Assembly (NCBI RefSeq): GCF_005222915.1
Contig: NZ_STFX01000006.1
Span: 124,001-188,000, forward strand
DNA: 64,000 bases
Direction of reading: 5' to 3'
From: Rhizobium sp. FKL33
GTDB taxonomy: Bacteria > Pseudomonadota > Alphaproteobacteria > Rhizobiales > Rhizobiaceae
Both the position numbers and the translations under genes were made by a program. The notes under the pieces are model-generated. The model did not search any database, was not told the DNA's origin, and saw only the letters and a list, made by a program, of their open reading frames with translations. This document shows, in pieces, positions 37,429 through 53,159 of the stretch; positions within the stretch are counted from its first letter, which is position 1, and every line of letters begins with the position of its first letter.

Positions 37429-38070
37429 TCACCCATAGGCGCCGCGGCGCAGGCCTTCGATCCAGTTGTTGCACAGGCGCACGCCTTCTTCAGGACGAAA
37501 GGCGTCCGGGTTGAGGCACCAGGCCAGCCAGAGCCCGTCCATCAGAGCGGTGAAGGAAATGGCGGCGAGGCGGAGATCGGCGACCGCGAAGCCTTCTTCG
37601 CGGGCGAGATCGCCGATGAGACCTTCGACCGTGCGGACGTAATCGCCATATTCCTGCTGCTGCGAGGCGCTCATGCGCGGCGAATGCAGGATCAGGCTCC
37701 AGAACACCACCCAGACGCCGAGCACGTCGCGATCCATCATGATCGGCGAGAAAGAGGCGGCGATGAAGGCGTCGAGCCGCGCTTTCGGCGTGGACTCGGC
37801 CTCATCCACCGCCTTGACGATGGATTGCAGGATGCCCTCGGACATGATGTCGAAGGCATAGGCGACGAGTTCATTGATCTCGCCGAAGTGATGGGTGATC
37901 AGCCCCTGCGTCACACCGGCCTCGGCCGCGATCTGCCGCACGGAGACGCCGGCATTGCCATGCTTGACGATGCAGCGCAGCGCCGCTTCGCCCAATTGGC
38001 GGCGGCGCTCTTCCGGCGCCTCGCGGCGAAAGCGGGCGCGCGTCTTCGGTCCTGTCTTGGCTGTCGTCAC
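37429..38070 (-). CDS. TetR-family regulator, BetI-like
   Basis: A 213-residue TetR repressor with helix-turn-helix QLGEAALRCIVKHGNAGVSVRQIAAEAGVTQGLITHHFG at about residues 25-65. The C-terminal half (LDAFIAASFSPIMMDRDVLGVWVVFWSL, then LMDGLWLAWCLNPDAF) is the BetI/TetR_C_6 type, whose known member senses choline. It is divergent from the flavoprotein-MttB operon and is the obvious candidate regulator; a betaine- or choline-like ligand would fit that operon. Confidence 0.9.
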   Translation of the reverse strand: MTTAKTGPKTRARFRREAPEERRRQLGEAALRCIVKHGNAGVSVRQIAAEAGVTQGLITHHFGEINELVAYAFDIMSEGILQSIVKAVDEAESTPKARLDAFIAASFSPIMMDRDVLGVWVVFWSLILHSPRMSASQQQEYGDYVRTVEGLIGDLAREEGFAVADLRLAAISFTALMDGLWLAWCLNPDAFRPEEGVRLCNNWIEGLRRGAYG

Positions 38071-38119: not shown

Positions 38120-38202
38120 AACATCATAATTTAATTGATGTTTTCTCTCTTGTTATAAGATCGTATAATTTTTCTTGACTTCAGCAACGGCGCTTCTATC
38201 CT
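38120..38202 (+). promoter_or_regulatory. TetR-type dyads and promoter ahead of the flavoprotein-MttB operon
   Basis: Two dyads lie between the TetR gene and the operon: AACATCA (38120-38126) with TGATGTT (38136-38142), and TTATA-GATC-TATAA at 38153-38168 (14 of 16 positions symmetric). Just downstream, TTGACT (38175-38180) and TATCCT (38197-38202), 16 bases apart, make a good promoter. Binding at the dyads would block RNA polymerase upstream of the -35. Confidence 0.45.
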
Positions 38203-38239: not shown

Positions 38240-40354
38240 ATGAATGTGATGACGAAACCGCAATCGCGGTATGACGTCCTGTTCGAGCCTGTCCGGATCG
38301 GCCCGGTCACCGCGCCCAACCGTTTTTATCAGGTTCCGCACGCCTCAGGCATGACCAATGCTCTTCCCCGAGTCCGCGCCGGCTTCCGTGAAATGAAGGC
38401 CGAGGGCGGCTGGGGGGTGATCTGCACCGGCGCCTGCTCCATCGACATCTCCTCCGACGACGCGCCTCTGCCGATGGCGACGATGTGGGACGACAACGAT
38501 ATCCGGGCGCATGCGCTGATGACGGAGGCCGTGCATCGCCATGGCGCGCTGGCCGGCGTCGAACTCTGGCATGGCGGCGCCTCCGTGATGAACCGGTCGA
38601 GCCGCATCGCGCCGCTGTCGCCCTCGGGCATTCCCTGGATGGCCACCCATGTCGGTTTCATGGGCAATCTGCGCCCCCGCGCCATGGACAAGCAGGATAT
38701 CCGCGACGTGCTGCGCTGGCAGGCGGAGGGCGCCCGCAAGGCTCGGCAGGCCGGCTTCGACATCGTCTATGTCTATGCCGGCATGGGCTATCTCGGTTAT
38801 GAATTCCTGTTGCCGGAATATAATCACCGCATCGACGACTATGGCGGCTCGATCGAAAACCGCGTCCGCTTCGTGCGCGAACTGGTGGAGGTCACCAAGG
38901 ATGCGGTCGGCAAGGATTGCGGCGTGGCGCTGAGGATTTCGCTCGAGGAATTGCGCGGCCGTCCCGGCCGGCATCTGCCATCTGAGGCGCATGAGGTGAT
39001 TTCGCTGCTGGCCGAGACGCCGGATCTCTTCGACGTCAAGATGGATTCCAGTCCCACCGACTGTTCCGCCTCCCGCTTCACCGGCGAGGGCAGCCATGAG
39101 CCGGTGATCGATTTCGTCAAGACGCTGACGAAAAAGCCTGTTGTCGGCGTCGGCCGCTTCACCTCGCCGGATACGATGGTGAGCCAGATCAGGCGCGGGG
39201 TGCTCGACTTTATCGGCGGCGCGCGTCCCTCGATCGCCGATCCTTTCCTGCCCGCCAAGATCCGCGACGGCCGAGTGGACGAAATCCGCGAATGCATCGG
39301 CTGCAATATCTGCATTTCCAGCTGGCATGACGGCGTGCCGGTGCGCTGCACGCAAAACCCTACCGCCGGCGAAGAATGGCGGCGCGGCTGGCATCCGGAA
39401 AATCCGGGCAAGGCCGAGCGGCGCGAAAAAGTGCTGGTGATCGGCGGCGGCCCCGCAGGGCTCGAAGCCGCGCTCACGCTCGGCCGGCGCGGCCATGAGG
39501 TGACGCTGGCCGAAGCAAGCTCCAGCTTCGGCGGCCGGCTGGTGTTCGAACGCGGTCTTCCCGGTCTTTCGGCCTGGAACCGGGTGGTGGATTATCGCCT
39601 GGGCCGGTTGCGGGAAATGCCCAATGTCCAACTCTATCTCGAAAGCCGGCTTGGGGCCGACGACATCGCCGATTTCGCACCCGATCATGTGGCGGTCGCC
39701 ACCGGCGCGCGCTGGACCAATTTCACCTATTCCTCGATGGAAATCCCGGTCGGCCGCATCGAGCACCCCAATGTCTTCACGCCCGACGACATCGCTGCAG
39801 GGCGAGTGCCCGAGGGCCCGACGCTGGTGTTCGATTTCGACAATTATTACATGGGCGGCGTCATCACCGAACATCTGGCAGGGCGAGGCGTGAGCGTCTC
39901 CTACGCCACCCCGGCGGGGCAAGCCTCGGCCTGGACGATCATGACCAATGAACTGCCGCTGGTGCATCGCGCGCTCAGCCGCCGCGCCGTGCCGGTTACC
40001 ACGCTGGTCACCGTCTCGGATTTCGATGGCGAGGTGGCGACGCTGACCCATATCTTCACCGGCGAGACGGAAAAGCGGCCCTGCCGCAATCTGGTGATCA
40101 CCGGGCTCCGGCTGCCCCGCGACGAACTTTTCCAGGAGTTGCTCGCCCGGCGGGACATGTTGCGTGATGCGGGCGTCAAGACGATCGAACGGATCGGCGA
40201 CACGCTTGCGCCCGGCGCCATCGCCCATGCCGTCCATAGCGGACATCTCTATGCGCGAGAGATGGGGCAGGGGGCCCGGGGCTTCCGCCGGGACGCGCCG
40301 ATCGTCGAGTTCGAGCCGGCCTTCACCTCGCGCGCCGGCTTGGCGGAGGTCTGA
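38240..40354 (+). CDS. Trimethylamine-dehydrogenase-like FMN/4Fe-4S/ADP flavoprotein
   Basis: A 704-residue Old Yellow Enzyme family protein: FMN-binding TIM barrel (residues 1-345), 4Fe-4S site with Cys352, Cys355, Cys358 and Cys370 (ECIGCNICISSWHDGVPVRC), and an ADP/FAD-like Rossmann domain starting VLVIGGGPAGLEA (398-410). It aligns along its length with trimethylamine dehydrogenase (NRFYQVPH; CTQNPTAGEEWRRGWHPE). The Cys that binds FMN covalently there (Cys30) is Ala35 here, and the catalytic His172 position reads Met182 while Tyr169 is kept (Tyr179). N-demethylation of another methylated amine, for example N-methylproline, is plausible. It leads the operon and overlaps the MFS gene by one base. 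Confidence 0.9.
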   Translation: MNVMTKPQSRYDVLFEPVRIGPVTAPNRFYQVPHASGMTNALPRVRAGFREMKAEGGWGVICTGACSIDISSDDAPLPMATMWDDNDIRAHALMTEAVHRHGALAGVELWHGGASVMNRSSRIAPLSPSGIPWMATHVGFMGNLRPRAMDKQDIRDVLRWQAEGARKARQAGFDIVYVYAGMGYLGYEFLLPEYNHRIDDYGGSIENRVRFVRELVEVTKDAVGKDCGVALRISLEELRGRPGRHLPSEAHEVISLLAETPDLFDVKMDSSPTDCSASRFTGEGSHEPVIDFVKTLTKKPVVGVGRFTSPDTMVSQIRRGVLDFIGGARPSIADPFLPAKIRDGRVDEIRECIGCNICISSWHDGVPVRCTQNPTAGEEWRRGWHPENPGKAERREKVLVIGGGPAGLEAALTLGRRGHEVTLAEASSSFGGRLVFERGLPGLSAWNRVVDYRLGRLREMPNVQLYLESRLGADDIADFAPDHVAVATGARWTNFTYSSMEIPVGRIEHPNVFTPDDIAAGRVPEGPTLVFDFDNYYMGGVITEHLAGRGVSVSYATPAGQASAWTIMTNELPLVHRALSRRAVPVTTLVTVSDFDGEVATLTHIFTGETEKRPCRNLVITGLRLPRDELFQELLARRDMLRDAGVKTIERIGDTLAPGAIAHAVHSGHLYAREMGQGARGFRRDAPIVEFEPAFTSRAGLAEV

Positions 40355-41619
40355 TGAACGCTGCCGCTCCCACTCTCTCGCCTTGGTCCGTCGCCTCGCC
40401 GCTTGCCGGCGGGGCGCTGCATGCGGTGGGGTCGGGCCTGTTCCACACGCTTCTGCCCCTGCGGCTGGTGGCGGACGGGCAGGGGGCGGACGCCGTGGGC
40501 CTGGTGGTGGGCGTGGAAGGCGTCGGCTTCATTCTGGGCTGTATCGGCTCTGTCCGGCTGATCCGCTCGGTCGGCGAAGTCAGGGCTTACGCGGCGCTGT
40601 CGGCCATATCGGCGACGCTGATCCTGTGCCTGGGTCTCGATCCGCATCTGGCGCTGTTCATGGCGATCCAGGCGGTGATCGGTTTCGCCAATGCCGGCCA
40701 GGCGGTGGTGATCGAAAGCTGGATCAACGCCATGGTTTCCAATGTCCATCGCGGCCGGGTGCTGACGCTTTATGTGCTGGTGCTCGGCCTGTTCTATGGC
40801 CTCGGCCAGTTGCTCGCCACCAATCTCGATCCCGCCGGCCATCCGATGCTGATGATCACCGCCGGCTTCTATGTCATCGCGCTTGCACCGGTCACCGCCA
40901 TCTGGGTCGGCGAGCCGCAGCTGCATGTGCCGGTGGGCGTCAGGCTGTTCCGCACCTTCGCGATCTCGCCGATCGGCGCGCTGGCCTGCCTGATGACCGG
41001 GCTCATATCCTCGACCTTCGCCTCGGTCGGCCCGCTTTACGGACTGCAGATGAATTTCACTCAGCAGACCATCGTTTTCCTGATGGCGGCCACGCAACTG
41101 GGCGCGCTCTTCCTGCAGTTTCCGCTCGGCTATCTCTCGGACCGGGTGGACAGGCGCGCGATGATGCTGTGGCTGTCGCTTTCGCTCGCGCTGGTCTGCG
41201 GCGTCTTCCTGCTGATGCGGGCGGATTCGCCGTTCTGGCTCTATCTCATCCTGTTTTCGCTGTTCGGCGGCATATCCGAGATCTTCTATCCGCTCGGCGT
41301 GGCGCATGCCAATGACAAGGCCGATCCCGCCGATTTCGTCATGCTGTCGTCCAATCTCCTGCTGATCTGGGCATTCGGCGGCGCGGTGGGTCCGGCGATC
41401 GTGACGGCGGGAGTAGGCTCGTTCGGCGCGGATCTGTTCTTCTGGTACGGCATCGGGCTGTCGGCGCTGTTTGCCGGTTACGCGCTGTTCCGGCTCTACC
41501 GGCAGCCGCCGGCCCGCAAGCGCGAACATTTCGTCGCCTATCCCCAGACCTCGCCGATGGTCTATGAATGGACGCCACATGATCAGGCGGACGGCAGCGA
41601 CGGAAAGGCGGACACATGA
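40354..41619 (+). CDS. MFS transporter
   Basis: A 421-residue major-facilitator protein with about 12 predicted membrane helices. The loop between helices 2 and 3 reads GSVRLIRSVGEVRAYA, and the middle loop is around WVGEPQLHVPVGVRLF. Family resemblance is to the small-molecule, YcaD/quinate-like MFS group (ESWINAMVSNVHRGRVLTLYV). It overlaps the flavoprotein stop by 1 base and the hydrolase start by 4. The operon also has a complete ABC importer, so this protein may import a related compound or export a product. Confidence 0.9.
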   Translation: MNAAAPTLSPWSVASPLAGGALHAVGSGLFHTLLPLRLVADGQGADAVGLVVGVEGVGFILGCIGSVRLIRSVGEVRAYAALSAISATLILCLGLDPHLALFMAIQAVIGFANAGQAVVIESWINAMVSNVHRGRVLTLYVLVLGLFYGLGQLLATNLDPAGHPMLMITAGFYVIALAPVTAIWVGEPQLHVPVGVRLFRTFAISPIGALACLMTGLISSTFASVGPLYGLQMNFTQQTIVFLMAATQLGALFLQFPLGYLSDRVDRRAMMLWLSLSLALVCGVFLLMRADSPFWLYLILFSLFGGISEIFYPLGVAHANDKADPADFVMLSSNLLLIWAFGGAVGPAIVTAGVGSFGADLFFWYGIGLSALFAGYALFRLYRQPPARKREHFVAYPQTSPMVYEWTPHDQADGSDGKADT

Positions 41620-43634
41620 GCCGGATCGTCGAGAGCTTCCCGCGCAAAATCACAACGCTCGATCCGGTGTTTATCACCATGTCGGACGGCGTGACGCTCG
41701 CCGCCACGATTTGGCTGCCTGAAGACGCCGAAGCCGACCCCGTGCCGGCCATTCTCGAACTCATTCCCTACCGGCGCCGCGACGGCACGGTGTTCCGCGA
41801 CATGAAGATGCATCCTTACGTCGCCGGACACGGCTTCGCCTGCGTCCGCGTCGACATCAGGGGATCGGGCGATTCCGAAGGCGTGCTGACCGACGAATAC
41901 ACCGAGCGCGAACAGCGAGACGCGGAAGACATCATCGCCTGGCTGGCCGCACAAAGCTGGTGCACGGGCGCGATCGGCATGACCGGAATTTCCTGGGGCG
42001 GCTTCAACGCGCTTCAGGTGGCGGCCCGACGCCCGCCGGCGCTGAAGGCGGTGATCGCGCTCTGCTGTTCGGATGATCGCTATGCCGATGACGTTCACTA
42101 TTTCGGCGGCAACCTCCTGACCGAAGACGGCATGTGGTCGAGTTTCATGCTCGGCATGAATGCGCTGCCGCCGGACCCTGAGATCGTCGGCGCGCGCTGG
42201 CGCAAGATGTGGCGCGAACGGCTGGAGGCGATCTCCTGCTGGTCGGAGACCTGGCTCCGCCATCAGCGCCGCGACGCCTATTGGGCATTCGGCTCGGTCG
42301 CGGAGGATTTCTCCGCCATCGACATTCCCGTTTATGCGATCAGCGGCTGGGACGACACCTATTTCAACGCCGTGCCCCGGCTGATGCAGGGTTTAAATGG
42401 GCCGAAGAAGGGGCTGATCGGCCCCTGGAGCCATGCCTATCCCTTTCTCGGCGCCCCCGGTCCCGCGATCCATTATCTCAAGGAGGCGATCCGCTGGTGG
42501 CGGCATTGGCTGGTTGGCGAAGACACCGGCATCATGGAGGAACCCGCCTATACCGTGCTGATCAAGGATCCGCACAGGCCGGCGCATTTCTATCCTGAGC
42601 ATCCCGGTCAATGGGTCGGCGAACCCGGCTGGCCGACGCCATCGGTTGAGATGCAGCGGCTCTATCTCAACGCGACGGGGCTTGCAACGGAGCCGGTAAC
42701 GGGTCCCCTCATGCGGCTCAAATCACCCGTCACCGCCGGCCGCGATTGCGGCCGTTACGGCGGCTATGGCGGTGAAGTTCCTGATATGGCCGGCGATCAG
42801 CGCCGCGAGGATGGGTTGGGGCTCTGTTTCCAAACGGCGGAACTCGAAGACGACCTCACAGTACTCGGCGCAGCCGTAGTCGACCTCGAGCTGGCCTCGG
42901 ACCGTCCGCAGGCGACGATCATCGCCAGGCTCTGCGAGGTCTGGCCCGATGGCGTGTCCACATTGATCACCTGGGGCGCACTCAATTTGAGGCAGCGGGA
43001 AAGCCGCGAGGCGCCGACGCCGCTCGTCCCCGGAGAGGTGGTCAAAGCGCGGCTTGAGCTCAATCATTGCGGACGGCGATTGGCGCGCGGCAACCGCCTC
43101 AGGCTGGTTCTCTCCAACCAGCATTGGCCTGTTCTCTGGCCTGCGCCGGGGATGCCGACCTTCACGCTCGCCTCCGGCGCTTCAGTGCTGCTGTTGCCCG
43201 TCCGAACCGCCCAACCCGACGACGGCGGGATCGCCCTTGAGCCCGCCGAAATGTCCCCGCCCGTCGCCGCGACCGAGTTGCGCGAGACGCATGACAGCCG
43301 GATTGTGACGATCGACGCTGGAAAGCGGTGCGAGACGCTGACGCTCGACAGCGATTACGGCCGCCAGAGGCTAGAGGATCGCGGCATCGAAACCTGGTCC
43401 GCAGTGCGCGACGTCATGGCGATCACCGAGGATGATCCGCTGTCGGCCAGACTAGAAACCGGCTGGACGCTCGGCTTCAAGAGCCGCGATTGCGACGCCG
43501 AGGCGACCTCGCGAGTGACGCTGAGGTCGACAGCGACGGAGTTCCATCTGCAATGGCGCATCGAGGCGCGGGAGAAGAACGAGACTATTTTCACGAGGGA
43601 GGGCGAGGCATGGATCGATCGGGATCATCTCTAG
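41616..43634 (+). CDS. CocE/NonD-family hydrolase
   Basis: A 672-residue serine hydrolase of the X-Pro dipeptidyl-peptidase/cocaine-esterase family. The N-terminal alpha/beta hydrolase domain has the VRVDIRGSGDSEG loop, the nucleophile elbow GISWGG with Ser126, Asp in AISGWDDTYFNAV and His in IGPWSHAYP; the C-terminal jelly-roll (PepX_C) domain runs from about residue 330. CocE acts on esters and its relatives on acyl, amide or dipeptide bonds. It is cytoplasmic (no signal seen) and co-translated with the MFS gene, so it probably cleaves the imported compound. Confidence 0.92.
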   Translation: MSRIVESFPRKITTLDPVFITMSDGVTLAATIWLPEDAEADPVPAILELIPYRRRDGTVFRDMKMHPYVAGHGFACVRVDIRGSGDSEGVLTDEYTEREQRDAEDIIAWLAAQSWCTGAIGMTGISWGGFNALQVAARRPPALKAVIALCCSDDRYADDVHYFGGNLLTEDGMWSSFMLGMNALPPDPEIVGARWRKMWRERLEAISCWSETWLRHQRRDAYWAFGSVAEDFSAIDIPVYAISGWDDTYFNAVPRLMQGLNGPKKGLIGPWSHAYPFLGAPGPAIHYLKEAIRWWRHWLVGEDTGIMEEPAYTVLIKDPHRPAHFYPEHPGQWVGEPGWPTPSVEMQRLYLNATGLATEPVTGPLMRLKSPVTAGRDCGRYGGYGGEVPDMAGDQRREDGLGLCFQTAELEDDLTVLGAAVVDLELASDRPQATIIARLCEVWPDGVSTLITWGALNLRQRESREAPTPLVPGEVVKARLELNHCGRRLARGNRLRLVLSNQHWPVLWPAPGMPTFTLASGASVLLLPVRTAQPDDGGIALEPAEMSPPVAATELRETHDSRIVTIDAGKRCETLTLDSDYGRQRLEDRGIETWSAVRDVMAITEDDPLSARLETGWTLGFKSRDCDAEATSRVTLRSTATEFHLQWRIEAREKNETIFTREGEAWIDRDHL

Positions 43635-43692
43635 CCCCGTTGAGGAGACTGCGGGAAAGTGGGCCGCGCCTTGGCCGGGGGAGGGCGACGTC

Positions 43693-44637
43693 ATGACGGC
43701 CTTCATTCTTCGCCGCGTCGCGCTTGGCGGGCTGATCCTGCTTCTGGTCTCCATCCTGCTCTTCCTGATGCTGCATATGATCCCCGGCGACGCAACAGTG
43801 GTGGCGCTCGGGCCACGCTCGACGCCGGAAATGCGCGAAGCCTTCCGCGCGATGATGGGCCTCGACAAGCCGCTCATCGAGCAACTCGTCGCTCATCTTG
43901 TTCGCCTTGCGCATCTCGACCTCGGTCAGGATGTATGGAGCCGCAGGCCGGTCACAGATATCGTCATGGAAGCGCTGCCCTATACGGTGACGCTGGCCTT
44001 CTGCAGTTTCGCCTGGGCGGTGACGCTCGGCACGCTGCTCGGCTGCATCGCCGTAGTTCATCATGGCCGCTGGCAGGATTGGCTGATCGGCCTGTTCTCG
44101 GTGGGCTTCGTCGCCGTGCCGTCCTTCGTGGTGGCGCTTTATTCGCTGCTGTTCTTTGCGGTGACGCTGAACTGGCTGCCGGCGATCGGCGCAGGCGAGG
44201 CGGGCGATCCCCTGTCGCAGATCCGCGCGCTGATCCTGCCGTCTTTCGCCATCGGAATCGGCTGGGTGGGCTATGTCGCCCGCATCATGCGCGCGGCGAT
44301 GATCGAGGCGCTCGGGGAAAGCCATGTCCGGACGCTGCGGGCCTTCGGGGTGAGGGAAAGCCGCATCGTCTATGGCTACGCGCTGCGGCAGGCCTTTCTT
44401 TCGGCGCTGCCGGTGATCGCCATCGGCTTTGGCGGATTGCTCACCGGCTCGGTTTTCGCCGAAATCGTCTTCACACGCCCGGGCTTAGGCAAACTGACCT
44501 ATGACGCGGTGATGTCGCGCAATTATCCGTTGGTGATGGGCGCTGTGCTCATTGCCTCAGCCCTCTATGTCGCCTGCATGATCATTGCCGATCTCCTCGC
44601 CGCAGCGCTGGATCCCCGCGTCAGGAGCGCCCTCTGA
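43693..44637 (+). CDS. Dipeptide/oligopeptide ABC transporter permease (DppB type)
   Basis: A 314-residue permease with about six membrane helices, the N-terminal FILRRVALGGLILLLVSILLFLMLHMIPGD block and the EAA loop IEALGESHVRTLRAFGVRESRIVYGYALRQA. TRPGLGKLTYDAVMSRNYPLVMGAVL is the conserved DppB/OppB end. It is the first of five transporter genes and follows the CocE-type hydrolase after 58 bases. Confidence 0.92.
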   Translation: MTAFILRRVALGGLILLLVSILLFLMLHMIPGDATVVALGPRSTPEMREAFRAMMGLDKPLIEQLVAHLVRLAHLDLGQDVWSRRPVTDIVMEALPYTVTLAFCSFAWAVTLGTLLGCIAVVHHGRWQDWLIGLFSVGFVAVPSFVVALYSLLFFAVTLNWLPAIGAGEAGDPLSQIRALILPSFAIGIGWVGYVARIMRAAMIEALGESHVRTLRAFGVRESRIVYGYALRQAFLSALPVIAIGFGGLLTGSVFAEIVFTRPGLGKLTYDAVMSRNYPLVMGAVLIASALYVACMIIADLLAAALDPRVRSAL

Positions 44638-44638
44638 C

Positions 44639-45544
44639 ATGGCCGAGATCGCCAGCGCCCGGACCGAAGACAGACATCAGGAGCCCGGCGCGCTGGCGCG
44701 GATAGGGGCGGTGATGGTCTCGGTCCTGTCGACACCGCTCGGCTTGATCGGAGCCGCGCTCGTGTTGCTGGTCGTCTTCACGGCGCTGTTTGCGCCCTGG
44801 CTCGCGCCCTATCCGGCCACCGCCATCAATGTGAAGGAGAGGCTTGCCGATCCCTCCTGGGCGCATTGGCTCGGCACCGATCAGCTCGGACGCGATCTCT
44901 TCTCGCGCGTGGTGATCGGCACGCGCACGGCCATGAGCGTTGCGCTGACCGCGCTCACCATTGCGCTTGCGGCCGCACTGCCGCTCGGATTGATTGCAGG
45001 CTATGGGCCGCGCTGGCTGGACGCGCTGATGATCCTCGTCTTCGACAGTTTCTCCTCGCTGCCGATGATCATGCTCGGTCTGACGCTCGTGGTGCTGCTC
45101 GGTCCCGGCCTGGGCACGGTCATCCTCGTCATCGTCCTCTATTGCATTCCGAGCTATGCGCGGCTGGTGCGCGCCCAGGTGCTGAGCCTGAAATCGCTCG
45201 ATTTCATTAGGGCGCAGCAGGCGATGAACGCCAGCACGCCGCGCATTCTCTTCCTGCATCTGCTGCCCAATGCCGTGGGTCCACTGCTCATCCTGGCCTG
45301 TCTCGATCTCTCCACCATCATCACGCTTGAAGCAGGGCTCTCTTTTCTCGGCTTGGGCGTGAAGCCGCAGATCCCCAGTTGGGGCAATATCCTCAGCGAT
45401 GGCTTCGCCGTGCTGCGCAAGACGCCGGTGCCGGTGATCGCCGGCGGCCTGCCGCTGATCATCGCTACGATCGGCTTCACATTCTTCGGCGAGGCCCTGC
45501 GCGACGCGCTCGATCCCAAGCTCGCTAGGAGGCGGTCGACATGA
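44639..45544 (+). CDS. Dipeptide/oligopeptide ABC transporter permease (DppC type)
   Basis: A 301-residue permease, partner of the preceding DppB-type protein. Signature segments are HWLGTDQLGRDLFSRVVIGTRTAMSVALTALTIALA, the EAA loop LKSLDFIRAQQAMNASTPRILFLHLLPNAVGPLL and LEAGLSFLGLGVKPQIPSWGNIL. The ATG at 44639 is one base after the DppB stop; the frame is open upstream to 44585. It overlaps the next ATPase gene by 4 bases. Confidence 0.92.
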   Translation: MAEIASARTEDRHQEPGALARIGAVMVSVLSTPLGLIGAALVLLVVFTALFAPWLAPYPATAINVKERLADPSWAHWLGTDQLGRDLFSRVVIGTRTAMSVALTALTIALAAALPLGLIAGYGPRWLDALMILVFDSFSSLPMIMLGLTLVVLLGPGLGTVILVIVLYCIPSYARLVRAQVLSLKSLDFIRAQQAMNASTPRILFLHLLPNAVGPLLILACLDLSTIITLEAGLSFLGLGVKPQIPSWGNILSDGFAVLRKTPVPVIAGGLPLIIATIGFTFFGEALRDALDPKLARRRST

Positions 45545-46386
45545 CGGACGCACCCGTGCTCGACATCGATAAGGTCAGCATCACCTATAGCGGCGTCGCG
45601 CGCGCCGTCTCAGAGGTCAGCCTGAAAGTCATGCCGGGCGAAGTGGTCGGGTTGATCGGTGAAAGCGGGTCGGGAAAATCAACGTTCGCCCATTCCATTC
45701 TCGGCCTGTTGCCCAAAAGCGCCGAGATCAGCGGGAACCGCATGCGACTTGCCGGCGTCGACCTCTTGACCGCCGGAGAGCGCGATTTCGCCCGCCTGCG
45801 CGGTCCGGCGGCGGCCATGGTGTTCCAGAACCCGATGGCGACCTTCAGCCCGCTGCACCGGATCGGCCGGCAGCTGACGGATTTCCTCTGGCGTGACCGG
45901 ACCTCCACAGAACGTCAGAAGCGGGAGAAAATCATCGCCGCCCTCGCAGACGCCGGCATTTCCGATCCCGAAGCGCGTTTCGACGCCTATCCCTTCGAAC
46001 TCTCGGGCGGCATGTTGCAACGCGTCTCCATCGCCGCCGCCCTGATGTGCGAGCCGGCGCTTCTGATCGCCGACGAGCCGACCACCGCGCTCGATGTCAC
46101 CATGGAAGCGCAGATCCTGCATCTGATGCGCGAATTACGCCAGAGAACCGGCGTGGCGATCCTGATGATTTCACATCAGCTCGGCGTCATCGCCGAAATC
46201 TGCGACCGCGTGGCGGTGATGCAGGCGGGCCGGATCGTGGAGGAGGGGACCGTCGAGCAGATCTTCGCGGACCCGCGACATCCCTATACGCGGGCGCTGC
46301 TCGCCTGCGAATTGTCGCTGGTCGACGACGACGCCAAGAGGCTTCCGGCCATCGCGTGGGATGAGACGATGGAGGCGGCGCGATGA
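45541..46386 (+). CDS. Dipeptide/oligopeptide ABC transporter ATPase (DppD type)
   Basis: A 281-residue ATPase with Walker A GESGSGKS (residues 40-47), [14 protein letters not shown] as the Q-loop, signature [18 protein letters not shown] and Walker [13 protein letters not shown]. It is shorter than most DppD proteins because the C-terminal Cys-rich oligopeptide domain is missing; the other ATPase has it. Four-base overlaps on both sides show translational coupling. Confidence 0.92.
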
Positions 46387-47369
46387 TGGCGACGCCAATC
46401 CTTGAAACGCGCTCCCTCTCGGTCTCCGTTCCCGGCAAGAGCCGCCTGCCATTCGTAAAAGGCCAGACGCTCGATATCCTCCGGGACGTGTCGCTGGATA
46501 TTGGCCGAGGCGAAATCATCTCGATGGTCGGCGAAAGCGGCTCGGGTAAATCGACCTTCGGACGAACATTGGTCGGCCTGATGAACCCGTCCGGCGGCGA
46601 GATCCTGCTCGATGGGGAAGCGCTTCCGAAATCGCAGGCGAGCGTGAGACGGCTGCGGAAGGCGGCGGCGCTTCTCTTTCAGGACCCCGTGACCTCATTC
46701 GATCCCCGCCAGCGCATCGGCTCGATCATCGCCGAGCCGCGCCATATCGCCGGTCGCGGCGATACCGGACGGGACGCAATCGCGGAGCTCGCCGCAAAAG
46801 CCGGTCTCACCCGCAATCTGCTCGAACGCTTTCCGCATGGGCTTTCAGGCGGACAGGCGCGCCGGGCAGCGGTGGCGCGGGCGCTTTCGGTGACGCCGAG
46901 GCTGATTATCGCCGATGAGCCGACCGCCGGCCTCGATCTCTCGGTGCAGGCGGGCGTCCTCAACCTGTTTCTCGACATCCGCGACGATGTCGGCTCGGCC
47001 TTCCTGATCATCACCCATAATCTGGCCGTGGCGCGCCGCGTCTCCGACCGCGTCGCCATCATGTATCTCGGCCGCATCGTCGAGACAGGGCCGACGCGCG
47101 ACATCTTCGCCGCCCCGCGCCATCCCTATACGCAGGCGCTTCTGGCCGCCGAACCCGCGCCGGATCCGCGCAAGCGCCGCACGGAGCCGCCGGTGATCGG
47201 CGAAACGCCGAGCCTCCTGCATCGCCCCACGGGCTGCGAATTTCATCCGCGCTGTCGCTTCGCGCAAGACCGCTGCCGGACCGAAGCGCCTGTTGAGACG
47301 CACCTTTCCGACTACCATCGCATTCGCTGCCACACTCCGCTCGCGCCGCCGGCGTCAGGAGACGGCTGA
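46383..47369 (+). CDS. Dipeptide/oligopeptide ABC transporter ATPase (DppF type)
   Basis: A 328-residue ATPase with Walker A GESGSGKS (residues 50-57), Q-loop FQDPVTSFDPRQRIG, signature LSGGQARRAAVARAL and Walker B LIIADEPTAGLD. The C-terminus is the oligo_HPY domain with the four-Cys pattern in CEFHPRCRFAQDRC and IRCHTPL. It forms the ATPase heterodimer with the DppD-type protein. Confidence 0.92.
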   Translation: MMATPILETRSLSVSVPGKSRLPFVKGQTLDILRDVSLDIGRGEIISMVGESGSGKSTFGRTLVGLMNPSGGEILLDGEALPKSQASVRRLRKAAALLFQDPVTSFDPRQRIGSIIAEPRHIAGRGDTGRDAIAELAAKAGLTRNLLERFPHGLSGGQARRAAVARALSVTPRLIIADEPTAGLDLSVQAGVLNLFLDIRDDVGSAFLIITHNLAVARRVSDRVAIMYLGRIVETGPTRDIFAAPRHPYTQALLAAEPAPDPRKRRTEPPVIGETPSLLHRPTGCEFHPRCRFAQDRCRTEAPVETHLSDYHRIRCHTPLAPPASGDG

Positions 47370-47399
47370 CCGCATCGCATTCAAAAAGAGGGAACGATC

Positions 47400-48956
47400 A
47401 TGACCGGACTGTTGATGAATCGCAGGCATTTCCTTCATACCGCAGCGGCGGCGGCCGGCGCATTGGCGCTGAGACCGGGCCTTTCCTACGCCGTCGAGGG
47501 CGACACGCTGGTGATCCGCGGCGCCTCCGATATCGAGGTCCTCGACCCCGCCTTCCAGAACGGTCTTCTTGAAGAGGAGGTCGGCCGCGCGCTGTTCCTG
47601 TCACTCAACCGGCTGGGCGATGTCCGCGGCGGCACGAAATGGGATCTCTACGCCGCCAAGGAGCTCAAGCAACTGTCGCCGACCGAAATCGGCTTCGAGC
47701 TGCATGACTGGCTGGAATGGACCGGCGGCTATGGCCCCGTCACCGCCGACGACGTGAAATTCTCCTTCGAACGGGTGAAAGATCCCGCCAACGCCTCGGC
47801 CTGGGCCTATGCCTTCGACGCCATGGACAAGGTCGAGGTCACAGGCGAACGCACCGGCGTCATCAAGCTGACGGCGCCCTCGGCGCCGTTCTGGCTGACC
47901 ACCATGCCCTATTACATGGGCAAGATCGTCTGCCGCAAAGCGTTGGAAAAGGCGGGCGGCAAATTCACCACCGAAGCGCCGGCGACGTCAGGCCCCTATG
48001 TGATCGAAAAATGGACGCCGAAGCAAAATCTGACGCTCGCCCTCAATCCCGGCTGGAGGGGACCCGCCCCGATCTTCCCGAAAATCCGTTTCGAGATCGT
48101 CACCGACGATGAGGCCGCCGCGCTCGCCTATGAATCCAAGGCGATCGACTATGCCAAGATCAGCCTCAACACGCTCGCCGCCTATCGCGACAAGCTGCCG
48201 GAGAGTACGGACCTGATCGAGATGGACGGCAATCGCTTTCTGTGGCTCGCCATCAACGTCAACAATGAGAAATTCAAGGACGAACGCGTCCGCCGCGCGA
48301 TCCAATATGCTGTCGATGTCGAGCAGATCATGCAGGGCAGCTATTCCGGCCTCGCCAAGGCGGCCACCGGCGTGATCCCGCCTGGGATGACCGGCCATCG
48401 CGACGCGATCCTCTATCCCGCCGACGCCGCAAAGGCGCAGGCGCTCCTGGAAGAGGCCGGCGTTTCGGAGCTGACGGTGGAGTTGATCTGCCAGAACGAC
48501 AAGACCAGCCAGCTGACCTGCCAGATCGTCCAGGCCCTGCTCGGCCAGATCGGCGTCACCGTCGAGATCAAGGCTTTGGATGACGGCGTTTACTGGACGG
48601 TGGGCGACAAGAGTTCGGGCGACCAGTGGAAGACGCTCGAAATCGCACTGATGAATTTCGCCGGCGGCGTCGATCCCTCCGAAAATCTCACCTGGTTCCG
48701 CCCCTCCCAGATCGGCGTCTACAACTGGTCGCAATTCGACAGTCCCGACTTCGAAAAGCTCTATCAGGAGGGCATGGCCGAGACGGATCCGGCCAAGCGC
48801 GACTTCATCTACAAGAAGATGCAGGATCTGATGGAGGAATCCGGCGGTTTCGTCTTCCTGACGCATGAAACCTTTGCCGCCGTGGCGCGCAAAGGGCTGA
48901 AGCCGCTGATCCTCGCCGATGGCTACCTCGACGTCACCCGCTTCGCCAAAGCCTGA
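47400..48956 (+). CDS. Dipeptide/quaternary-amine-type ABC substrate-binding protein (SBP family 5)
   Basis: A 518-residue periplasmic binding protein of the DppA/OppA class (SBP_bac_5). The N-terminus has a twin-arginine signal (MNRRHFLHTAAAAAGALALRPG, positively charged and hydrophobic, ending near SYA). The mature protein begins DTLVIRGASDIEVLDPAFQN, and later has VTADDVKFSFERVKDP and TAPSAPFWLTTM. The start is ATG 47400 with GAGGG upstream; the ATG at 47415 is an alternative. It follows the ATPases by 30 bases. Ligand unknown. Confidence 0.92.
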   Translation: MTGLLMNRRHFLHTAAAAAGALALRPGLSYAVEGDTLVIRGASDIEVLDPAFQNGLLEEEVGRALFLSLNRLGDVRGGTKWDLYAAKELKQLSPTEIGFELHDWLEWTGGYGPVTADDVKFSFERVKDPANASAWAYAFDAMDKVEVTGERTGVIKLTAPSAPFWLTTMPYYMGKIVCRKALEKAGGKFTTEAPATSGPYVIEKWTPKQNLTLALNPGWRGPAPIFPKIRFEIVTDDEAAALAYESKAIDYAKISLNTLAAYRDKLPESTDLIEMDGNRFLWLAINVNNEKFKDERVRRAIQYAVDVEQIMQGSYSGLAKAATGVIPPGMTGHRDAILYPADAAKAQALLEEAGVSELTVELICQNDKTSQLTCQIVQALLGQIGVTVEIKALDDGVYWTVGDKSSGDQWKTLEIALMNFAGGVDPSENLTWFRPSQIGVYNWSQFDSPDFEKLYQEGMAETDPAKRDFIYKKMQDLMEESGGFVFLTHETFAAVARKGLKPLILADGYLDVTRFAKA

Positions 48957-48968
48957 CCTTAACCCCGA

Positions 48969-48996
48969 GGGCTTCTCTTCGTCGAAGAGAAGGCCC
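48969..48996 (+). terminator. Hairpin between binding-protein and mttB-like genes
   Basis: TTCTCTTC (48973-48980) pairs perfectly with GAAGAGAA (48984-48991) around a 3-base loop, extended by GGGC/GCCC with one bulged G. It starts 12 bases after the stop and runs to 2 bases before the first possible ATG of the next gene. No T-run follows, so it may limit read-through or translation rather than end transcription. Confidence 0.5.
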
Positions 48997-49013
48997 TGAT
49001 GCAGGAGATGACC

Positions 49014-50549
49014 ATGACGCGACAGGCGGGACGCCGCGAGGCAAGACGGGCGGCAGGCGGGATCAGACAGATGGGTTTTGGCGGCGTCGTCAATCGCTAT
49101 CCGCCGATCGGGCTGTTGAGCGAGGACGAGGTCCATTCCATCCATCTCGCCTCGCTCGATCTTCTCGCCCGGACGGGCATGGAGGTGATGCATGGGGAAA
49201 GCCGAAAGCTTCTGAAAGCGGCCGGCGCCGATGTCGACGAGACGAGCCAACGGGTGCGCTTCGATCCCGCCATGATCGAGGAGATCATCCGCAGCGCGCC
49301 ATCGTCCTTCACATTGCAGGCCCGAAATCCCGCCCGCGATCTCCGGGTTGGCGACGGCAGCCTGATTTTCGCGGCCACCGGCGGCCCGGCCTTCGTCTCC
49401 GATCTCGATCGCGGCCGCCGCGCCGGCAATTATCGCGATATGTGCGACTTTATCAAAGTCGTGCAGAGCCTGAATGTCCTTCACCAGGAAGGCGGTTGCC
49501 CCTGCGAGCCGACCGATCTCGATCCTGACTCCCGTCATCTCGATTTCTACGACGCGGCCATCCGGCTGACCGACAAGACCTGGCAATGCTGGGCGCTGGG
49601 CCGCTATCGGGTGGAAGATGCGCTGGAAATGCTGACGATCGCGCTCGGCCAGAGCCGGGACGAGTTGCGCCGGAAGCCGGCGACGCTGACGGTGGTGAAC
49701 TCCAATTCGCCGCTCCGCCTCGACATTCCCATGGGAGAGGGGCTTCTCGCCATGGCGCGGGCCGGCCAACCGGTGGCGATGACGCCGTTTACGCTGTCAG
49801 GCGCCATGAGCCCGGTCACGATCGCCGGCGCGCTCACCCAGCAAAACGCCGAAGCGCTCGCGCTGATCACGCTGGCGCAGATCGCAGCGCCGGGCGCGCC
49901 GGTGCTCTATGGCGGCTTCACCTCGAACGTCGACATGCGCACGGGGTCGCCGGCTTTCGGCACGCCGGAATACGCCAAGGCGCAGATCGCCTCGGGCCAA
50001 CTGGCGCGGAAATACAGCATTCCCTTCCGCTCCTCCAATGTCACGGCGTCGAATACGGTCGATGTCCAGGCGGCCTATGAAAGCGGCATGTCGCTGTGGT
50101 CGACCATCATGGGCGGCGCCCATCTCATCGAACACGCCGCGGGCTGGCTGGAGGGCGGGCTGACCGCCTCGTTCGAAAAGCTGATCCTCGACGCCGAAAT
50201 GCTGCAGATGATGCGCAGCTTCCTCGATCCGCTGCAAGTCAACGCCGACACCCGCGCGGTTGATACCATCGGAGATGTCGGCCCCGGCGGCCATTTCTTC
50301 GGCGCGCCGCACACTATCGCCCGTTTCGAAAACGCCTTTTACGAGCCGATGCTATCAGACTGGCGGAATTTCGAGACCTGGTCCGAGACGGGCGCCCGCA
50401 GCGGCACCGAACGCGCCAACGCCATCTGGAAGGAGCTGCTCAGGACCTATCAGCAGCCAGCGCTGGATCCTGCGATCGAAGACGAACTTGAGGCCTATGT
50501 CGCGCGCCGCAAAGAGGAAATTGGCCGCGGCCAACTCGACGCGGCCTGA
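49014..50549 (+). CDS. Trimethylamine methyltransferase (MttB) family protein, non-pyrrolysine
   Basis: A 511-residue protein of the MttB/MtgB superfamily of corrinoid-dependent methyltransferases. Characteristic stretches include FATGGPAFVSDLDRG, HLDFYDAAIRLTDKTWQCWALG, LAMARAGQPVAMTPFTLSGAMSPVTIAGALTQQNAEAL and the GGHFFGAPHTIARFENAFYEPMLSDW end. There is no in-frame amber codon, so it belongs to the non-pyrrolysine group, whose known members demethylate betaines and carnitine. The start at 49014 has GGAG six bases upstream; 48999 is an alternative but its site is buried in a hairpin. No corrinoid protein or reactivase gene is present in the window. Confidence 0.92.
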   Translation: MTRQAGRREARRAAGGIRQMGFGGVVNRYPPIGLLSEDEVHSIHLASLDLLARTGMEVMHGESRKLLKAAGADVDETSQRVRFDPAMIEEIIRSAPSSFTLQARNPARDLRVGDGSLIFAATGGPAFVSDLDRGRRAGNYRDMCDFIKVVQSLNVLHQEGGCPCEPTDLDPDSRHLDFYDAAIRLTDKTWQCWALGRYRVEDALEMLTIALGQSRDELRRKPATLTVVNSNSPLRLDIPMGEGLLAMARAGQPVAMTPFTLSGAMSPVTIAGALTQQNAEALALITLAQIAAPGAPVLYGGFTSNVDMRTGSPAFGTPEYAKAQIASGQLARKYSIPFRSSNVTASNTVDVQAAYESGMSLWSTIMGGAHLIEHAAGWLEGGLTASFEKLILDAEMLQMMRSFLDPLQVNADTRAVDTIGDVGPGGHFFGAPHTIARFENAFYEPMLSDWRNFETWSETGARSGTERANAIWKELLRTYQQPALDPAIEDELEAYVARRKEEIGRGQLDAA

Positions 50550-50747: not shown

Positions 50748-53159
50748 TCAGCTCGCGGCCTTGACCGCCGCCTCCACGTGGACATCCGAAGAGGCGTCCA
50801 CCCAGCGCAGACCGCCCTGGTAACGCCAGGCCATCCGCCCCTTGTCGTCGAGCGCGAACAGGCTCAGCCAGCCATTGTCGAACAGCGCGCGGACGCCCGC
50901 ATGCCGCTGCAGTATATCTGAAATGGCCTCTTTCGGAGCCTCCACCGCGACTGTCAGGCGCAAGGGTTCATGGACGAAATTCTCGCCGTCATGCACCGAT
51001 TGCCAGGGAAGTCCCGCACGCAGGTTTCCGCCATTGCCTTCGACCACGCCGATGCCGCCGACGACATTGTGCAACAGCTTGTTGCCGGCTCCGAAGAGCG
51101 AGGGCGCGACAGAGGAGCCGAAATATTGCAGGCTGATCCAGCTCGCCACCACAACAGGCGCCGTCAGGATCAGTTCGAGGACCTTGAAGCCCTCGTCCTT
51201 CCGCCAGACATAGTCGTGCAGGAAGGCCTGCCCCTCGAGCGACCGCCCGACCGTGCGACTCCGCGGCGCGGCGATGAAGGCGCGGCAGCCGGCGAGACCA
51301 AATTCCGGGCGCACTTCCGACCAGTCGCGGCTCCGCCCGCTCACATTGCCCGCCTTGGCGCGGGGCAGCCTGAGCGACCGTTCCGCCCGCGTCAGCCGGC
51401 CTGCAAGCGCCAGCCAACTCCGGATGCGCGACAGGTCTTCTGCGGCGACAGCGGCGTCGACATCATCCGTAAACAAGGTGACGGCGTCGGTCGTGGTGTC
51501 ATGCAGACCGGCAAGGAACACAGTATCCGTCGGGATGCGGATGCCCTTCAGCGCCAGCCTCTCGCGCACGCCGCGGTCATTGAGGAGGTCGGCCAGAAGG
51601 CGCGCATTGACATCGCCGGCATAGCCGCCGCAGGCGCCGCAATGCAGCGCGCTGGCATAGGGGTTGTTCACCGTATTGGCGCCATGGCCGGCGATCAACA
51701 CATAGCGAGCGAAGCCTTCGGTCAGCGACATCGCCTTGAGCACCGTCTCGGCCATGCCGGCGCGCAGGTCGAGATCGAGGCTCGGAGAAAGGCGGGGCTT
51801 GGCGGCGTCGGGCCGCTTCCCCTTGCCGAAACCGAAGCCGTCGCGCAGCAGTTTGGCGGCATAGACGGGACCCATCGCTTCAACAAAAGCGAAGGACGAC
51901 ACCGCCGCGAGCTTGAACCGCCCGCAGGCCCGGGTCGCGCGGGCGCTGAACCGCGCCTGCCGATCGGCATCCTTGTTCTCCTCTACCTCGGCGCAGGTGA
52001 AGACCGACGGCTTCAGCAGAACCGGCAGGCGATGTTCGGGCACATCGGAGGCAAAGCCCTTGTGGCTCGCGCCGAGGCCGAAGAAGCCGGCGAAGCCGAG
52101 CGTCCGGATGCCGCCATCCGCGCTTTCGAGCGCGCGCCGGAAGATTTCCGACCGGACATCGATGCAGAAGGCGGCCTGCAGCATCGGCCTGACCTCGGCG
52201 AGTTTTTCGGCCTGCGGCGCGGCGAGGAGTGACGCCAGCTTGCGCTGAGCAGCCCGCTCTACGGCCAGTTGCAGCACAGCGTCGATGCGTATGTCGGCGG
52301 TCGGGGTCAGCGGTTCGGCATGGATCTTCCGCACCTTGCGCCATTCCGCCTCGATTGCGCTCTTGTGCAGCGCATAGAGCGCCTCCTCGAAGACGAGCAG
52401 GATAGCGAGCATCTCAAGCGGGGAGGGGTCGGTGCGGCCCGAGACTTCGGCCTTGAACTGACTATGCCGCGCATATTGCGCCCAGCCCCCGAGCGTCAGC
52501 AGCAGTTGGTGGAAGTACGTCCCCGGCTCGGCTCCGAGGCCGAGCGAGACGGCGGCCCGTTCGATCGCGGCCTCGGGCGCCTCCGGCGTGTCGGCCACAT
52601 GCGCGCCGAAACCCTTGAGACCCAGGATCTCCGGCGTGAGGTCATGCATGGCGAAGGCCCGCCAGGCGGCGTAGAGGCCGTTGCGGCGCGAGGCTGCCCA
52701 GAGCGCCTGCCCCTCATCGAAGAAGCCGGCGGCGAAAGCCCCGATCCTGTCGGCGACGATGGCGGGCCAGTCCTTGCCGGCTGCGCGCGCGGCGAGATCC
52801 GCGATGGTCGGCAAGGCCGCCACTGGCTTGGGCTCCGACGCAGCCGCAGACTTGAGCGCGGCGAGGTCCAGATCGGATGCGCCGAAGGCGGCCAGAGCCG
52901 ACAGCAAATCCTCATCGACAATCTCACCGGAAGCGATCTTGTCGGCATAGTGCTTGCGCGGAAGCGCCAGACGCACGCCGGCGATTCGAGAGAGAAGAGC
53001 GGCCGTGTTGTCGAAAGCTTCGGTCGTCTGGCCGATAAAGGGATTGACGGCAACGGTCGCCGTCAGAGGCCAAGCAGGGGGGATTGCCCTGACGGCCTTG
53101 TCCGCCGCGCGCGAAAGCGTCTGGCCATGCAGCGTGTCGAAAGAGGATGTATCGGCCAT
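50748..53159 (-). CDS. dabA: DabA (DUF2309), inorganic-carbon uptake subunit
   Basis: An 803-residue DUF2309 protein, which is the beta-carbonic-anhydrase-like subunit of the DAB energy-coupled CO2/bicarbonate uptake complex. The zinc and active-site residues are present: Cys332 and Asp334 with Arg336 in FCIDVRSE, and His492 with Cys507 in [23 protein letters not shown] (the 15-residue His-Cys spacing matches DabA of Halothiobacillus). It is cytoplasmic and works with the membrane subunit encoded 4 bases upstream. It converges with the MttB-family gene over 198 bp, which holds only a weak 6-bp hairpin (50552-50572). Confidence 0.93.

Follow-up and report, generated by a model that had tools for sequence, protein, structure and literature searches.

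Here, we analysed a 64,000-nucleotide stretch of DNA from Rhizobium sp. FKL33 (the window; contig C49 of its own 5.3-Mb genome) and found at positions 38240-50549 a nine-gene operon that, with a probability of roughly 0.6, serves the aerobic processing of a quaternary ammonium compound. In this pathway, an MttB-superfamily methyltransferase would demethylate the compound and a flavoprotein (OYE in the following) would oxidise the product, with the compound supplied either by an MFS transporter or by a Dpp-type importer together with a CocE hydrolase. The proposal builds on features that can be read from the sequences: gene content, a conserved gene set, protein clades and their partner enzymes, common palindromes, and genes for MtgC, MtgD and RamA in the same genome. 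A wider claim, to which we give somewhat less than even odds, is that this aerobic pathway is widespread, with its first step carried out by the corrinoid enzyme MttB (mostly in Alphaproteobacteria) or by a Rieske oxygenase (mostly in Gammaproteobacteria), either of which would deliver the same tertiary amine to a new flavoprotein subfamily, and with dedicated genes in Alphaproteobacteria for importing and hydrolysing a natural conjugate of this amine.

The operon and its proposed pathway

All nine genes lie in a row on the plus strand and were assigned by profile matches. The first (38240-40354) encodes OYE, a flavin and 4Fe-4S amine dehydrogenase resembling trimethylamine dehydrogenase (TMADH) and histamine dehydrogenase, apparently of a new subfamily and proposed to catalyse the second step. 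It is followed by the MFS transporter (MFS_1; 40354-41619), which by its profile and its conserved place beside OYE is a probable importer of the free substrate, and by a CocE/NonD serine hydrolase (Peptidase_S15 and PepX_C; 41616-43634), which would probably hydrolyse an imported ester or amide. The importer comprises a DppB/GsiC-type permease (43693-44637) and a DppC/NikC-type permease (44639-45544), both with BPD_transp_1, a DppD-type (45541-46386) and a DppF-type (46383-47369) ABC ATPase, both with oligo_HPY, and a family 5 solute-binding protein (SBP_bac_5; 47400-48956), whose match to a Tat signal stays under its cut-off. For the second permease, we moved the start from TTG 44585 to ATG 44639, the most probable one. 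The last gene (48999-50549) encodes MttB, by profile match and reading of its open reading frame (ORF) a methyltransferase of the non-pyrrolysine type, and proposed to catalyse the first step.

The original prediction, made from the letters of this stretch, had described eight contiguous same-strand genes with overlaps of 1-4 bases at most junctions. Contiguity and common strand stand, but the genes number nine, and the overlaps (1, 4, 4 and 4 bases) occupy only half of the eight junctions; gaps of 58, 1, 30 and 42 bases separate the genes at the remaining four, 58 bases being the largest intergenic gap inside the operon. The protein families that it had named were all recovered (Oxidored_FMN/TMADH-like, MFS_1, CocE, two permeases, two ATPases, SBP_bac_5 and MTTB), and they bear out its pairing of two demethylation-type enzymes, one a flavin/4Fe-4S protein and the other a member of a corrinoid methyltransferase family.

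The reactions, their order, the electron acceptor, the repression and its ligand, and the substrate are what we infer from these genes. Quaternary amines are the targets of non-pyrrolysine MttB proteins as well as of Group V Rieske enzymes, according to the accessible parts of PMC12478193 and PMC10952381, and the first step is thus most likely the conversion of a quaternary to a tertiary amine. MttB would transfer one methyl group to MtgC, encoded elsewhere in the genome; MtgD would move it on to tetrahydrofolate, a MetF-like enzyme would oxidise it, and RamA would maintain active corrinoid. In the second step, the flavin/4Fe-4S enzyme would oxidise the tertiary amine and pass electrons to electron-transfer flavoprotein (ETF), with formaldehyde and a secondary amine as the most likely products. 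Two forms of the substrate are suggested, a conjugated one by the peptide-type importer and CocE, and a free one by the MFS transporter: the free compound would enter through the MFS transporter, and a conjugate (ester or amide) through the Dpp-type importer, to be cut by CocE into the amine and a second nutrient. As a weakly held guess, the substrate may be a betaine with two N-methyl groups, e.g. proline betaine, because the quaternary and the tertiary step would then end in a common secondary amine.

The flavoprotein subfamily and its two partner enzymes

OYE contains an FMN domain, a dinucleotide-binding region and four cysteines for a 4Fe-4S cluster, and hence belongs to the TMADH family in the broad sense. 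Its closest solved chains are 6L6J and two histamine dehydrogenases (634, 628 and 592 bits), followed by TMADH (473 bits). The TMADH likeness claimed earlier holds for family and layout but not for the active site, in which Ala35 stands at the position of the FMN-linking Cys30 of TMADH and Met182 at that of His172, outside the narrow definition of a TMADH. In TMADH, Cys30 forms the 6-S-cysteinyl link to FMN, and columns are named here by TMADH numbering.

Is this active site a common property of OYE relatives? We scanned named genomes, took the best 80 of at least 591 relatives and calculated a tree of 95 rows, leaving out L079 for an in-frame stop in its match span (L and G numbers denote loci and genomes). 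Locus L061 of Rhizobium sp. RCAM05350, in which several genes are split, entered neither this tree nor that of MttB. Partners were scored at 45% identity for MttB and at 40% for a Rieske protein within 4.5 kb of OYE; L073 was labelled MttB-linked by hand, since the MttB gene that closes its operon stands 9 kb off. A clade with 48 members emerged (SH-aLRT 100, quick method): MttB accompanies 24 of them and a Rieske protein 13, neither is in view for 11 (three of which, L080, L091 and L106, have a short or missing flank on one side), and no row has both. Not one of the 35 rows of the neighbouring group reached the threshold for either partner.

We compared the columns of TMADH Cys30, Tyr169, His172, Trp264, Asp267, Trp355 and the four cluster cysteines, of which the Trp264 column falls in a gap of the OYE-TMADH alignment and is placed by the multi-row alignment alone. 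The clade reads Ala, Tyr, Met, Ser, Asp, Trp and four Cys in 48/48 rows; in the neighbouring group (35 rows), these positions are taken by Cys, Tyr, His, an aromatic residue, Asp/Glu, Asp/Asn and four Cys. These columns rule out that OYE is TMADH itself, and an identity of 29% over residues 6-635 rules out that it is the demethylase StcD. On these alignments, OYE apparently represents a new subfamily of TMADH-family flavin/iron-sulfur dehydrogenases. The columns are identical in MttB-paired (24/24) and Rieske-paired (13/13) members of the clade, which suggests that MttB and the Rieske protein hand over the same kind of intermediate. Six more MttB-linked OYEs and that of L114 fall outside the clade, and the pairing thus seems to have arisen more than once; L134 (OYE 46%) is a fourteenth Rieske row, likewise outside. 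TMADH passes its electrons to ETF, and in Ensifer adhaerens (L062) genes for the ETF alpha and beta subunits adjoin each of the two gene modules described below. Two side observations concern these loci: L137, from a SAR324 metagenome-assembled genome (MAG), contains two weak MttB-like matches (26-27%) between two OYE genes (2.6-12 kb), and L101 (CP059262.1) is titled Exiguobacterium profundum (MAG), yet its OYE groups with Rhodobacterales, so that the genome is probably mislabelled.

The operon MttB matches PF06253 (MTTB) over its full length (632 bits, positions 4-500 of 500) and has no in-frame stop, i.e. no amber codon. It scores 336.5 bits against the trimethylamine MttB equivalog TIGR02369, below the cut-off of 525, and its closest solved chains are 4YYC, 2QNE and the glycine betaine methyltransferase 9YCE. 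In a tree of 58 rows (57 different; L101 left out for an in-frame stop in its match span), 33 OYE-linked rows, including one duplicate pair, form a single clade together with two unlinked rows (98/94). The 18-row sister clade, to which the genome's own paralogue L066 belongs, contains no OYE-linked row. The operon MttB does not group with known or mtgC-linked MtgB proteins, its clade being another than that of 2QNE, 4YYC and the own paralogue L065, which groups with S. meliloti 4YYC. Since the majority of linked rows came from searches that started with OYE, the linked share in the clade is inflated; this does not apply to the count by rank, in which MttB matches were ordered regardless of OYE and the first ten (window included) were all OYE-linked, compared with 6 of the next 25.

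The operon is on a different contig than mtgC and mtgD. Contig C54 encodes another of the genome's five MttB homologues (the operon's one included) together with MtgC with both B12 domains, DUF1638, a MetF-like protein, MtgD (pterin-binding) and RamA. The description of MttB as a member of a demethylase family is therefore kept with one correction: its partners are encoded elsewhere in the genome, so that it can act in trans. MtgC was found at 80% identity or more in 31/32 MttB-type genomes (in G152 in pieces), and in G008 only as a 52-residue fragment. At L055, on contig C24 of the own genome, a further MttB paralogue adjoins a class I/II aminotransferase gene (8.7-11.5 kb) and possibly serves a different amine pathway.

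The Rieske partner was found in Gammaproteobacteria and on one Rhizobium plasmid. Three full Rieske ORFs searched in Pfam contain the Rieske and the ring-hydroxylating catalytic domains, the L061 fragment the Rieske domain, and the best solved relatives of the L077 Rieske protein include CntA and Stc2 (3VCA). The motif ECYHC occurs in 13/13 full Rieske ORFs at least 42% identical to the probe that lie beside OYEs of at least 62%. It corresponds to Glu205-Cys206-x-x-Cys209 of CntA, a cysteine pair described for some Group V quaternary-ammonium oxygenases (PMC10952381, accessible parts). Mutual identities are 48-81% for 12 of these 13 proteins and 32-37% for that of L086. In L061, the OYE is 77% identical to that of the window (residues 2-658), and a Rieske gene, itself split, occupies the place that MttB has in the window. 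In 34 genomes (32 MttB-type plus G151 and G157), the L077 Rieske protein found no match above 42%; the Rieske proteins of the own genome are at most 38% identical to it. An enolase-family gene near the L061 Rieske gene was considered as a hydroxyproline betaine epimerase, which found no support: its solved relatives are unnamed mandelate racemase-type enzymes and sugar-acid dehydratases.

Several observations weigh against the pathway as proposed. The contrast with other OYEs is not clean, since a 38% Rieske protein with ECYHC lies 1 to 2 kb off at L127 and a 36% one without ECYHC about 3 to 4 kb away at L141; L077 has a second Rieske protein (34%) that also is without the motif. The sampling by OYE query favours OYE-linked MttBs, a bias that the rank-order control covers only partly. 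Rieske-type genomes had been predicted to be devoid of the corrinoid protein, which is ruled out by MtgC in 13/14 of them, and loss of the corrinoid system thus does not account for the swap. L069, L062 and L075 have OYE, CocE and the importer with neither MttB nor a Rieske protein in view, from which it follows that the first step is not universal; in the L075 genome, a search at 1e-20 gave no MttB, and the sole B12 match is MetH-sized. StcD, which is known to demethylate N-methylproline, is but a distant relative of OYE, and the relatives of the flavoprotein include deaminating enzymes, so that the second step may release a methylamine. OYE might act like histamine dehydrogenase or 6-hydroxypseudooxynicotine oxidase (Pno), oxidising the larger side of the tertiary amine and releasing dimethylamine or methylamine plus an aldehyde, not formaldehyde, after an unchanged start of the pathway. 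The ranking of the solved relatives, with TMADH last, favours this course, and so does Pno, a member of the same family that releases methylamine and whose cluster has ETF, MFS and TetR genes (PMC5500553, accessible parts). We nevertheless consider it unlikely: the clade is without the Cys, the His and the aromatic residue found in 35/35 rows of the neighbouring group, so that neither precedent fits, and none of the nine operon genes encodes an aldehyde dehydrogenase.

Two modules and their palindromes

Comparison of gene order and of candidate operators supports a division into module A (TetR, OYE, MFS and MttB) and module B (CocE and the Dpp-type importer), which together would form one regulon. 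Module B is inserted in module A in the window, lies beside it in other arrangements elsewhere, and is apart from it in a few genomes. Among 20 loci fetched by place, all nine genes appear in window order in G001, G003, G006, G007 and G065. The set recurs in G002, with frame changes interrupting each of OYE, CocE and MttB, and G077 is devoid only of MFS. TetR, OYE, MFS and MttB occur without CocE or importer between them in G004 and G008, and on one contig in G005, where CocE and the importer are on another. In G088, G070 and Mesorhizobium sp. B2-1-8, OYE-MttB stands beside a CocE-importer block in other orientation, and Fuscovulum ytuae shows yet another order. The modules are ~14 kb apart on one plasmid of Ensifer adhaerens (L062), which carries no MttB, and ~180 kb apart in G094. 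All or most of the cluster is also present in named records of, among others, Mesorhizobium, Phyllobacterium and Ensifer; cultured relatives that carry it are, e.g., Mesorhizobium loti DSM 2626 and Phyllobacterium pellucidum BT25. MFS is kept beside OYE at loci without CocE and importer (L041, L050, L052). The split frames of L061 (CP087971.1), which affect CocE, a permease, an ATPase, the binding protein, the Rieske gene and a second OYE, look like sequencing error rather than decay, as do those of L045 (G002). Directly downstream of the operon, on the opposite strand, the window contains a gene for a DabA-type inorganic carbon transporter (50748-53159); in G002 (L045), too, the cluster has a DabA match at its flank.

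A TetR-family regulator gene (37429-38070, minus strand) diverges from the operon and, by profile search and its orthologues, probably encodes its repressor. The protein had been called BetI-like, and it is related to BetI but scores below the cut-offs of both NCBIfam BetI models (99.8 bits vs 118 and 95.8 vs 201.3). Orthologues 68-96% identical hold the same divergent place beside OYE. The palindrome TTATAAGATCGTATAA (38153-38168), a probable TetR operator, emerged from an alignment of 14 TetR-OYE intergenic regions, all of which (14/14) share TTATACGATCTTATAA and variants of it next to a promoter-like -35/-10 pair. In the window, this pair (TTGACT and TATCCT; 38175-38202, plus strand) is a consensus match only: the region contains 3 such motifs compared with 2.1 in shuffles, i.e. 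not above shuffles, and similar bases recur in the 14-region alignment. TetR would repress from the palindrome and presumably be relieved by a quaternary amine.

The palindrome is the sole site in the window at up to two mismatches and the sole site in its own genome at up to one mismatch, where the reversed-pattern control gave 0. We searched 13 genomes or records at up to one mismatch, with no hit of the reversed pattern in any of them. In two of the cases with split modules, both modules are accompanied by the palindrome: in L062 at 30186 and at 15997, the latter before MFS-CocE, and in G005 at 15163 of L041 and at 9710 of L040, the latter before CocE. These two module B sites (L062 15997 and L040 9710) had no part in building the site matrix. 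L061 has sites at 10502 and, weaker, at 24897. G006, G007 and G077 gave no cluster site at this stringency, their copies having diverged. A single site with one mismatch lies outside the cluster in G005, and likewise in G006. A second, more distant OYE paralogue lies near a copy of the palindrome in both L061 (22779-24897) and L062 (16374-18368), and a third enzyme may thus belong to the regulon in Rhizobium RCAM05350 and Ensifer.

Clusters with a different TetR (30-34%) contain another palindrome, TTGTACGATCGTTCAA, before OYE and CocE in L046, L063, L069, L070 and L074, the 5 of 32 scanned loci that have it before both operons at up to two mismatches; G094 shows one site with one mismatch and two with three. 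Mononucleotide shuffles of 2.4 Mb gave four matches at up to three mismatches. Judged from these sites, the gene set is apparently under one repressor in many relatives. The idea that the genes act as one unit is borne out in this comparison by the conserved set and by common palindromes where the modules are apart; as to the predicted conservation of the neighbourhood, set and palindromes persist, but the order is kept in close kin only.

Could CocE and the importer instead serve an unrelated nutrient, a peptide or ester, with only the regulator in common, while MttB and the flavoprotein use a free amine imported by MFS? CocE scores 218 bits (cut-off 66.3), its closest solved chains are cocaine esterase, and the Ser, Asp, His and Tyr of that enzyme are aligned in it, which we take to be the catalytic triad and the oxyanion Tyr. 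With two permeases, two oligo_HPY ATPases and the binding protein, the Dpp/Opp-type set is complete; the binding protein stays below the DppA equivalog (83.8 bits, cut-off 1005), and its predicted structure is a poor model (mean pLDDT 63). CocE is on the same locus in 24/33 MttB-linked loci (23 at a 41% cut plus L064, with an annotated CocE just under it; L037 and L045 among the 33 are near-copies of the window) and in 0/37 loci with an OYE below 60% and neither partner. The nine MttB-linked loci without CocE speak for a separate role, although the genomes of two of them, G005 and G094, carry the module at another place.

On the same side of the balance, and against conjugate supply, are further observations. 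In the sequence examined, CocE was not found at 14/15 Rieske-linked loci. CocE and Dpp are generic and met in other settings: homologous ABC genes accompany 18/20 further CocE loci (43-47% identity, 15-16 kb), L181 and L185 being without them, as is the own CocE paralogue L068. At L180 (G059:C16:87000-103000), the neighbours are a xanthine dehydrogenase-type subunit, a polysaccharide-deacetylase/OHCU decarboxylase fusion, a ureidoglycolate lyase and a deaminase, so that CocE-Dpp there is probably part of purine breakdown; some other loci among the 20 show surrounding ORFs of similar lengths. Against the main proposal as a whole, TTGTACGATCGTTCAA is missing or weak in most loci scanned (one copy, three-mismatch sites or none) and was not found in L064, L096, L101, L105, L114 and L117. 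We still regard a separate nutrient as improbable, because the same CocE-Dpp type accompanies module A in at least four arrangements and stands behind the same palindrome when split, and because several CocE-Dpp clusters show no MFS at 60% identity. In addition, L193 (G088:C22:7000-23000; 0-10.6 kb) combines an importer and a CocE (43%) with a different MttB (44%), a TetR and a gene for an M19 membrane dipeptidase. This more distant link between CocE-Dpp and an MttB is a separate one and hints at a peptide-like conjugate.

Relation to known systems

For many MttB-family proteins from aerobic bacteria, no substrate has been assigned. Through the cluster, one MttB clade is tied to a defined partner, to an alternative enzyme with which it interchanges, to a transporter and a hydrolase, and to a probable operator, which opens the substrate search to simple induction and binding tests. 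If the proposed pathway is true, soil, plant-associated and marine bacteria would have a further route for regaining carbon, nitrogen and one-carbon units from quaternary amines, and corrinoid and iron-oxygenase solutions that replace each other within one pathway would amount to a natural experiment. That no standard pathway has exactly this gene set agrees with the open literature, in which no cluster of this composition appeared among the matches listed, by title or abstract start (subscription papers being mostly outside this scope). Taken singly, MttB, TMADH-like enzymes, Rieske demethylases and CocE-Dpp pairs are known; what appears unreported within this scope is how they are linked and interchanged, and the flavoprotein subfamily.

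The closest parallel for the first step is the MtgBCD demethylation of glycine betaine in aerobic Rhodobacteraceae, whose gene set, in the accessible parts of PMC12478193, is like that of contig C54. The same parts report that marine bacteria with mtgC and mtgD often carry several, up to seven, MtgB-domain ORFs, so that unassigned MttBs are to be expected. The likeness consists in an MttB-superfamily protein and in genes for MtgC, MtgD, a MetF-like protein and RamA in the genome; the operon MttB differs in its separate clade, in being joined to a flavoprotein, a hydrolase and an importer, and in its contig apart from mtgC/mtgD. A variant of glycine betaine breakdown, with MttB as MtgB and the flavoprotein as dimethylglycine demethylase, would suit this precedent and the BetI-related TetR but is quite doubtful, as a paralogue encoded near mtgC, mtgD and ramA is already present and clusters with S. 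meliloti 4YYC, the operon MttB is only 39% identical to this paralogue and in another clade, and the importer is of the peptide type.

Compared with TMADH, histamine dehydrogenase and Pno, OYE is alike in the layout of FMN, 4Fe-4S and dinucleotide-binding parts, in the cluster cysteines, in the Asp267 column and, in one relative, in the ETF genes nearby; its clade differs by Ala for the FMN-linking Cys, Met for His172 and Ser in the aromatic column. Stachydrine catabolism in S. meliloti reportedly proceeds by the Rieske enzyme Stc2 and then by the flavin demethylase StcD. Its logic, a quaternary-amine demethylase followed by a flavin demethylase, is that of the proposed pathway, here with MttB in the place of the Rieske enzyme. 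StcD is an N-methylproline demethylase (PMC12239276, accessible parts); the sole OYE relative on pSymB, taken as StcD from that source, is without one cluster Cys in the alignment besides its low identity. The nicotine hybrid-pathway cluster has the flavoprotein family and ETF, MFS and TetR in common with ours and differs in its substrate, with no MttB or Rieske step in the parts of PMC5500553 consulted. Group V Rieske enzymes such as CntA and Stc2, finally, resemble the ECYHC-bearing partners of the same OYE clade, whereas in the window, which has none, MttB would take their place.

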